Positions 26,407 to 32,590 of a DNA stretch of 64,000 nucleotides are shown here, in pieces; position 1 is the first letter of the stretch, and each line of letters begins with the position of its first letter. The notes beneath the pieces were generated by a model. It was not told the DNA's origin, made no database searches, and saw nothing but the letters and a program-made list of their open reading frames with translations. Source of the DNA: a candidate division LCP-89 bacterium B3_LCP (GTDB lineage: Bacteria > Electryoneota > B3-LCP). The stretch is from the NCBI GenBank assembly GCA_005223185.1, contig NJBN01000002.1, positions 519,036-583,035 of the forward strand. The letters run 5' to 3'. A program made the translations under genes and the position numbers.

Positions 26407-26446
26407 GAGATTGCTTCGCCCGGCTGCGCCGTCCTCGCAATGACGG
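26407..26446. repeat. Hairpin repeat ending in ATGACGG (GAGATTGC...GCAATGAC)
   Basis: GAGATTGC at the left and GCAATGACGG at the right flank an inner hairpin built on CGGC/GCCG. It shares the layout of 26663-26702, 28622-28646, 28829-28872 and 32552-32590. The AGGATTCAGGATTCGGGATT stretch just upstream (26371-26396) is a short imperfect tandem. Confidence 0.65.
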
Positions 26447-26562: not shown

Positions 26563-26615
26563 CCGGGACATCCCCAAAGGGGTGGCTTCGCCACAAGCTG
26601 TCCCGGCCACCCGCC
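26563..26615. repeat. Composite hairpin repeat CCGGGACATCC...AAGCTGTCCCGG, copy 1
   Basis: The outer stem CCGGGACA/TGTCCCGG surrounds a variable inner hairpin (GTGGCTTCGCCAC) and is followed by CCACCCGCC. The outer frame recurs at 28486-28540 with a different inner hairpin; a degenerate copy lies at 20966-20992. Confidence 0.75.
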
Positions 26616-26662
26616 AAAATGTTGGGTTGCGCTGTGCTTAACCCAACCTACAAATTATTATC

Positions 26663-26702
26663 GAGATTCTTCACTGCGCCTTCGGCTTGCTCAGAATGAC
26701 AA
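26663..26702. repeat. Hairpin repeat ending in GAATGACAA
   Basis: GAGATTCT at the left and CAGAATGAC at the right flank a GCGCC-TTCG-GC-type inner part. Same family layout as 26407-26446. Confidence 0.6.
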
Positions 26703-28485: not shown

Positions 28486-28540
28486 CCGGGACATCCTGAC
28501 TTCGTCAGTCCCTTCGGGAAAGCTGTCCCGGCCACCCGCC
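28486..28540. repeat. Composite hairpin repeat CCGGGACATCC...AAGCTGTCCCGG, copy 2
   Basis: Same outer stem and CCACCCGCC tail as 26563-26615, but the inner part holds two hairpins (CTGACTTCGTCAG and CCCTTCGGG). Confidence 0.75.
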
Positions 28541-28553
28541 ACTACTGGCCAGT

Positions 28554-28583: not shown

Positions 28584-28621
28584 GGGAAGTGTTATCCCTT
28601 TCCAAATGCAAAGCATTTGTC

Positions 28622-28641
28622 ATTCCCGCGTACGCGGGAAT
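28622..28641. repeat. Perfect hairpin ATTCCCGCG / CGCGGGAAT
   Basis: A 9-bp perfect stem with a 2-base loop. With the flanking TGTC and CCAGAG it forms the left, inverted end of a segment closed at the right by 28829-28872. Confidence 0.75.
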
Positions 28642-28688
28642 CCAGAGAACTAGAAGTGTAAAAAGTACGTCATTAATATTAATCTGTA

Positions 28689-28871
28689 GTCTATCACGAA
28701 GATTTTAGCGATATAGAACATGCCATTAAGCAAGAAAAACAACTAAGAAAATAGAAGAAACTCTGGAAACTGAAACTAATAGATCAAATAAATCCTGAAT
28801 GGGAAAACTTATATGACGTTTTGAATACCTCTGGATCCCTGCGTCCGCCCCGAAGGGGCAGGCAGGGATGA
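28689..28871 (+). pseudogene. GIY-YIG nuclease relic (C-terminal half, internal stop)
   Basis: Frame from 28689 reads VYHEDFSDIEHAIKQEKQL, then RK, a TAG at 28752-28754, then KKLWKLKLIDQINPEWENLY and DVL. This is the well-known C-terminal half of small single-domain GIY-YIG nucleases (E.AI.REK.LKKW...LI...NPEW.DL); the stop sits where the conserved Trp (TGG) should be. A TAA lies three codons upstream of the frame start, and the GIY-YIG catalytic half is missing. Reading continues through the hairpin repeat to TGA at 28869, as if the repeat supplied the end of the gene. Confidence 0.75.
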
Positions 28872-28872
28872 C
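28829..28872. repeat. Hairpin repeat CTCTGGATCCCTG...CAGGGATGACA
   Basis: It carries an inner GCCCC-GAA-GGGGC hairpin. The outer ends CTCTGGAT and ATGACA are the inverse of TGTCAT and ATCCAGAG at 28618-28647, so the two flank the GIY-YIG relic as imperfect terminal inverted repeats. Confidence 0.65.
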
Positions 28873-32551: not shown

Positions 32552-32590
32552 TGTCATTCTGGCAAACGAAGCGCGTCCAGAATCTGACAG
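32552..32590. repeat. Inverted repeat CTGTCATTCTGG...TCCAGAATCTGACAG
   Basis: Imperfect palindrome of about 12 bp per arm; same TGTCATTC/GAATGACA family as 26663-26702 and 28622-28646. Confidence 0.6.

Follow-up and report, generated by a model that had tools for sequence, protein, structure and literature searches.

Relic and hairpins in the window

The stretch of DNA that was analysed, referred to below as the window, is 64 kb long and contains the remnant of a small GIY-YIG nuclease gene closed in by two hairpins. Only the C-terminal (3') half of the gene is left, the N-terminal half having been deleted. The frame between the hairpins (28686-28832) translates to VVYHEDFSDIEHAIKQEKQLRK*KKLWKLKLIDQINPEWENLYDVL. 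Its TAG (28752-28754) stands at the position of a Trp that is conserved in homologues, and the next in-frame stop, the TGA at 28869-28871, lies within the right hairpin. The first-pass annotation had located this framed relic correctly to within one base; its description of a C-terminal GIY-YIG half with a Trp-to-stop change was confirmed, as were the imperfect inverted hairpins on both sides, the latter by a motif scan and DNA folding.

The left hairpin (28619-28642, + strand; GTCATTCCCGCGTACGCGGGAATC, then CAGAG) had a stem of 8 bp, a loop of 4 nt and a folding energy of -8.0 kcal/mol (z -4.1). The right hairpin (28834-28872, inverted) folded with -13.4 kcal/mol (z -2.8), and both folded better than shuffled sequences. 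Both were of the CGTC-tagged REP kind, GTCAT-stem-ATCCAG with the heads outward; this kind includes dRS3 of Neisseria and RPE-4/RPE-6 of Rickettsia (Di Nocera, De Gregorio and Rocco 2013, PMC3733652). Such REPs were defined here by a GTC head, a stem of 8-9 bp opening with AT, a loop of 4-5 nt and a CCA tail. The left hairpin had all of these (GTC, the arms ATTCCCGC/GCGGGAAT, a 4-nt loop and CCA); the right one had a long loop and the head TGTC instead of CGTC.

On its own, the relic is not long enough to give a Pfam match. In a protein search of its own genome, it was recovered at C12:547736-547867, which corresponds to window positions 28701-28832 (E 2.3e-24 to itself), and it also matched a second relic (C15:122551) and an intact gene (C7:237713). 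By this similarity, it was assigned to class A, a type separated from other small GIY-YIG genes by a Pfam search of 118 genomes. The features of the window were as follows.

28619..28647, + strand: left CGTC-type REP hairpin, head GTCATTCC outward and tail ATCCAGAG gene-ward (sequence, motif scan, DNA fold)
28686..28832, + strand: class A GIY-YIG gene remnant (translation, own-genome protein search)
28834..28872, - strand: right CGTC-type REP hairpin, inverted (sequence, scan, fold; near-identical right end in the second relic)
26409..26444, - strand: solo GTCAT repeat, GTCATTGCGA..GCAATC variant, which frames class A genes elsewhere (motif scan)
26665..26700, - strand: solo GTCAT repeat, GTCATTCTGA..GAATC variant, which frames class A genes elsewhere (motif scan)
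32553..32584, + strand: solo GTCATTCTGG..CCAGAATC hairpin of the type found around the intact C7 gene (motif scan, fold)

Related hairpins had been proposed at 26407, 26663 and 32552. All three repeats were present; the one at 32552 folded well, whereas the other two folded poorly as simple hairpins. The relaxed motif GTCATnnn...n'n'n'ATC matched 12 GTCAT repeats in the window, these three included; in 100 shuffles, the mean was 2.1 and the maximum 7. Part of the 12, lying within coding regions, are probably chance matches. A second repeat family of about 55 nt (CCGGGACATCC..GCTGTCCCGGCCACCCGCCA) was seen at 26564-26617 and 28487-28541, beside REP-bearing intergenic stretches.

Class A genes between inverted REPs

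Class A proteins are about 95 residues long. Intact members scored 45-65 bits against GIY-YIG PF01541 (cut-off 22.6) and thus belong to this family; in the class A profile A1 (YYVYILASKRNGTLYIG..AIxREKQLKKWxRxWKxxLIExxNPEWxDLY), the catalytic GIY-YIG residues Y7, Y18, G20, R28, H32 and E65 are invariant. The class A loci came from 291 genomes (first set, n=89) and from named genomes (second set, n=72), and loci fetched via the REP pattern (L065-L094) were left out of all framing counts. A gene was counted as framed when an outward-headed repeat lay on both sides within 250 nt.

With the relaxed motif, 95 of the 161 class A genes were framed, compared with 4 of 504 other ORFs at the same loci. 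The first set contributed 46/89 (Fisher p 7.5e-39) and the second 49/72, the latter set being biased in that its five query seeds were framed or partly framed, a bias that the first set does not share. The stricter hairpin motif gave 81/161 against 1/504 for neighbour ORFs. Since the strict scan misses short loops and bulged variants, the motif was widened and the neighbour control was repeated; the counts became 99/161 and 6/504. Even with the widest motif, 24/161 class A genes had no REP end on either side. Where a class A gene had no GTCAT motif, it was often still bounded by strong inverted ends whose sequence was a variant one (e.g. GTCGTTCCGGCG, GTCTCACCCGCG and GTCATCCTGAACGAAGTGAAGGATC), among them GTCTCACCC and GTCGTTCCC in genome G090.

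The first-pass annotation had asked whether small GIY-YIG genes lie non-randomly relative to the repeats. This was found by a wide margin, and for class A only. The remaining small GIY-YIG genes surveyed (UPF0213-like and other types) were framed in 0/16 cases with the stricter motif, and the treatment of all small GIY-YIG genes as a single group was rejected on this count. A gene end formed by the repeat had also been proposed, which held for the sub-family of the window relic and failed as a rule. Among 116 class A genes, the stop codon lay before the downstream REP in 101 cases, within the REP in 11 and beyond it in 4, the median gap from gene stop to REP being 7 nt. A stop codon within the repeat was therefore rejected as a defining feature.

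The REP density was 3.7 per kb within 250 nt of a class A gene and 0.16 per kb beyond. Upstream of the gene, the orientation was '>' in 94 cases versus '<' in 30; downstream, it was '<' in 91 versus '>' in 33. The resulting unit had a median size of 388 bp (347-545 bp, 5th-95th percentile), intact units usually measuring 350-450 bp. Hosts included Brocadia, Bradyrhizobium, Thiobacillus, Nitrospira, Chloroflexota, Omnitrophota, Cloacimonadota, Planctomycetota and CPR bacteria. Away from class A genes, 38 of 61 REP pairs at most 120 nt apart were oriented '> <', as in the unit.

It could be argued that GIY-YIG genes and hairpins merely occupy common intergenic space of low constraint and have no functional link. 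Both are indeed intergenic, and 15 REP-positive genomes had no detected class A gene. However, with the strict motif, the 81/161 framed class A genes stand against 0/126 neighbouring small ORFs, and the inverted orientation is consistent. This explanation is contradicted by the framing counts, as well as by the Y1 control described below (0/39), and is scarcely credible. The association between the class A gene and GTCAT REPs is real beyond reasonable doubt.

On the tree of class A proteins, the type of REP was clustered, with 37 changes versus a mean of 62.5 after shuffling, and none of 200 shuffles was as low. Such clustering would be expected for cognate recognition, but host relatedness contributes and could explain it. 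One class A gene, L326 on pSymB of Sinorhizobium meliloti Ak57, was framed by CTCATCCCTGTG..CACAGGGATCCAG dimers resembling the rhizobial RIME elements, and these RIME-like repeats may be a further family of the class A system.

At the genome level, class A genes also predicted REPs. Among 252 genomes outside the phylum, where a genome with three or more strict-pattern REPs was scored as REP-positive, 22 had both class A and REPs, 19 had class A only, 13 had REPs only and 198 had neither (OR 17.6, p 5e-12). Fewer than three strict-pattern REPs were found in 30 of 72 class A genomes. These mismatches, which were checked in part, as well as the REP-positive genomes lacking a detected class A gene, may be due to variant REPs, incomplete genomes or loss.

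RAYT transposases belong to the Y1 superfamily. Y1 transposases were found in 186 of the 291 genomes and gave 10 matches in the genome of the window, so REPs might be spread by such an enzyme (e.g. Y1/RAYT), with the GIY-YIG gene only inserting into, or being carried between, existing REP dimers. REPs are targeted by some insertion sequences, such as ISPpu9, which lies in REPs (PMC8450116). However, within Y1-positive genomes, class A still predicted REPs (OR 13.9), and Y1 had no significant effect once class A was fixed, in class A-positive or -negative genomes, and added little. From REP-bearing genomes, 40 flanks of Y1 genes were fetched, 39 of which were usable, and the Y1 gene was framed in 0/39. 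Di Nocera 2013 (PMC3733652) likewise found no transposase gene between CGTC repeats. In addition, the GIY-YIG gene tails on solo repeats, described in the next section, indicate that solo repeats derive from gene-bearing units. Spread of the REPs by another enzyme is thus improbable, and Y1/RAYT transposases were rejected as primary owners of the REPs after the search of 291 genomes.

Dispersed copies and occupied sites

The genome of the window (3.79 Mb, 18 contigs) contained one intact class A gene (C7:237548-237829), which was framed by TGTCATTCTGGCTTGTCCAGAATC hairpins in inverted orientation. The second relic, at C15:122551, had the same left hairpin as the window relic and a nearly identical right hairpin; it had kept a piece of the N-terminus (YFVYILASQRNGTLYV) and a piece of the C-terminus (LIDQFNPEWEDLYNSLNTSG). 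When the right end of the unit was used as the query, 22 places were found in the same genome. In 7 of them, which were dispersed and differed in their 5' break points, the hairpin was joined to 30-50 nt of the GIY-YIG 3' end. Because these solo repeats have kept tails of the GIY-YIG gene, at least they are fragments of gene-bearing units. The places with a hairpin only would be what remains once the gene tail too is lost. The feature in the window is one decayed copy of this widespread unit of nuclease and REPs.

The CGTC REP pattern gave 19 strict matches in this genome, and the reversed pattern gave 0. Some of the REPs (C15:122602, C16:4545, C12:247592 and C7:274352) had about 14 nt in common beyond the hairpin head (GGATGGTTAGAGTA-like); the repeated unit may therefore extend past the hairpin, and its true end is uncertain. 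Double-headed palindromes (TGTCATTCCCGCG..CGCGGGAATGACA) resembling two REPs collapsed into one were seen at C12:247592-247633 and at two Sphingobium loci (L333/L334). A small GIY-YIG gene outside class A (C18:106714-107304; L001:1400-1990) lay between two copies of a tRNA-Asp-like 3' half (GGTCGCGGGTTCGAGTCCCGTCGGCCCCGCAAA), with the first part of another, broken GIY-YIG copy coming next. No complete tRNA was found there by ARAGORN, and the locus may represent another kind of mobile arrangement, one that makes use of tRNA 3' ends.

Five genomes had two class A copies that could be aligned at the DNA level. Paired copies were 83-96% alike over the unit. In G041, G090 and G224, the likeness (83-93%) stopped at or near the repeats, and the flanks were unrelated. 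In G091, the likeness reached further than the unit.

Occupied and unoccupied sites were found in two genera. In Azospirillum lipoferum 4B, a class A gene flanked by two REP dimers, one to either side, was located between sufB and sufC, and the corresponding site had neither gene nor REP in A. ramasamyi, A. oryzae, Azospirillum sp. B510 and A. thermophilum, the intergenic regions differing around the insertion. In Sphingobium, the full unit lay between fnrL and a response-regulator gene in TomMM7A, TomTYG73 (frameshifted) and TomTYG46. At this site, TomTYG64 and TomTYG74 had one palindrome with GTC heads at both ends, as would be left by a deletion between the ACCCCGGG repeats of the two hairpins, and TomTYG72 had neither unit nor palindrome. 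Since the 'empty' Sphingobium sites are partly collapsed repeats and the Azospirillum intergenic regions differ, gain and loss are not fully separable here. Neither a target-site duplication nor an exact empty-site junction was recovered at the Azospirillum and Sphingobium sites, and searches for empty sites on Sinorhizobium and Rhizobium plasmids gave only scattered repeat matches.

Copies that are dispersed between unrelated flanks, and sites with and without the unit, are features of transposable elements. They fit a unit that would arrive, copy itself and decay, and they support the earlier proposal of a gene that may spread the hairpins or be spread by them, through a reaction that we infer.

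It should be considered whether the unit is immobile and the enzyme a resident, domesticated Ssn-like single-strand nuclease that acts on the repeats and shapes DNA uptake or repair, its gene remaining next to the sites that the enzyme recognises because of regulation or selection. Ssn (Chenal, Veyrier and colleagues, Nat Commun 2025) is reportedly a GIY-YIG family of site-specific single-strand nucleases, first studied in N. meningitidis; the single-stranded DNA is cut at a repeat that has hundreds of copies, and transformation is modulated. The class A gene of N. gonorrhoeae, located among dRS3/CGTC-1 repeats, was 60.5% identical to L049; this homology links class A to the Neisseria gene, which is probably ssn. 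If so, the cleavage step is already experimentally supported, and a nuclease paired with its repeat is not entirely new. In several Bradyrhizobium species, too, the class A gene is in a similar setting; L181, L196, L203, L207, L214, L234 and L239 share a similar, apparently conserved intergenic position between REP dimers. However, the intragenomic copies are dispersed with unrelated flanks, relics and gene tails are scattered on solo repeats, and one Azospirillum has the insertion inside its suf operon. Nuclease activity on the repeats is, moreover, compatible with mobility. An immobile resident nuclease is therefore considered rather unlikely.

Candidate mechanism and known systems

The best explanation of the feature, and a reasonably probable one, is a decayed copy of a mobile unit, a class A nuclease gene between inverted CGTC REPs, that would have been moved by its own enzyme. 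In the mechanism proposed, a REP hairpin would form on single-stranded DNA during replication, repair or DNA uptake, and the nuclease encoded by the unit would recognise its own REP and nick beside it. Either the whole unit or any two REPs in the matching inverted orientation could then be copied or rejoined elsewhere. Solo REPs and '> <' dimers would relate to the unit as REPINs do to RAYTs, being derivatives that are non-autonomous or have an internal deletion, and copies of the unit would decay through point stops, internal deletion and collapse of two hairpins into one. We know of no GIY-YIG enzyme that acts as a prokaryotic transposase, which counts against the mobile unit.

A broader generalisation is put forward more tentatively, as quite possible though short of probable. 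The CGTC-REP superfamily (including dRS3, RPE-4/6 and the GTCATTGCGAGCGAAGCGAAGCAATC and GTCATTCTGA families of many phyla) could be made up of unit ends together with non-autonomous derivatives, all from a single class of tiny mobile units. These would be mobilised by a GIY-YIG nuclease of about 95 residues acting on single-stranded DNA of the hairpin, and would be a GIY-YIG equivalent of RAYT/REPIN with an autonomous form of about 350-450 bp. CGTC-type REPs are among the commonest short bacterial repeats and occur in pathogenic Neisseria and Rickettsia. The presence of the class A gene inside inverted REP pairs in many phyla provides a named candidate for their missing transposase. If mobility is true, the units would be among the smallest autonomous mobile units known and, to our knowledge, the first prokaryotic unit whose driving enzyme is of the GIY-YIG type and works on the hairpins at its own ends. 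If the enzyme is no more than Ssn-like, a nuclease paired with its repeat is still the prevailing arrangement for class A, decaying into solo repeats.

The repeats described here have the GTC head, the AT-opening stem, the short loop, the CCA tail, the frequent inverted dimers and the spread over several phyla of the CGTC-tagged REPs of Di Nocera 2013 (PMC3733652). In contrast to that account, they frame a specific nuclease gene of about 95 aa. Di Nocera 2013 (PMC3733652) reported no associated gene and found no dedicated transposase, and its list of intragenic elements omits REPs in hypothetical ORFs under 120 aa. Because no dedicated transposase was found there, the class A nuclease is the best candidate for the mobilising enzyme of CGTC REPs.

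A literature search for GIY-YIG proteins linked with REPs found nothing, and found neither framing by CGTC REPs in general, nor REPs as ends or derivatives of a nuclease unit, nor occupied and unoccupied sites. Since the Neisseria gene is probably ssn, the pairing of nuclease and repeat may be partly published already; the mobile unit and its link to CGTC REPs look new. Ssn with its NTS repeat and class A are both small GIY-YIG proteins with a many-copy cognate repeat and a wide distribution. For Ssn, a sequence-specific single-strand nuclease activity affecting transformation is reported, whereas for class A the framing statistics, the decay series, the presence/absence sites and the link to CGTC REPs are given here.

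The spread of a selfish gene via a GIY-YIG nuclease is a principle known from GIY-YIG homing endonucleases. The class A unit differs from these in having no intron or intein, in its terminal hairpins and in its many sites as opposed to one homing site; class A proteins gave only a weak, sub-threshold match to TIGR01453. The likeness to RAYT/REP systems noted in the first-pass annotation is apt. As in RAYT/REP/REPIN systems, a nuclease gene lies between inverted REPs, and inverted REP pairs that appear non-autonomous are scattered in the genome. The architecture is alike and the nuclease is different: RAYTs are Y1 (HUH) enzymes with GTAG-tagged repeats, whereas class A proteins have a GIY-YIG domain in place of the Y1 transposase domain, their repeats are GTCAT-headed, and the Y1 genes of REP-bearing genomes are unframed.
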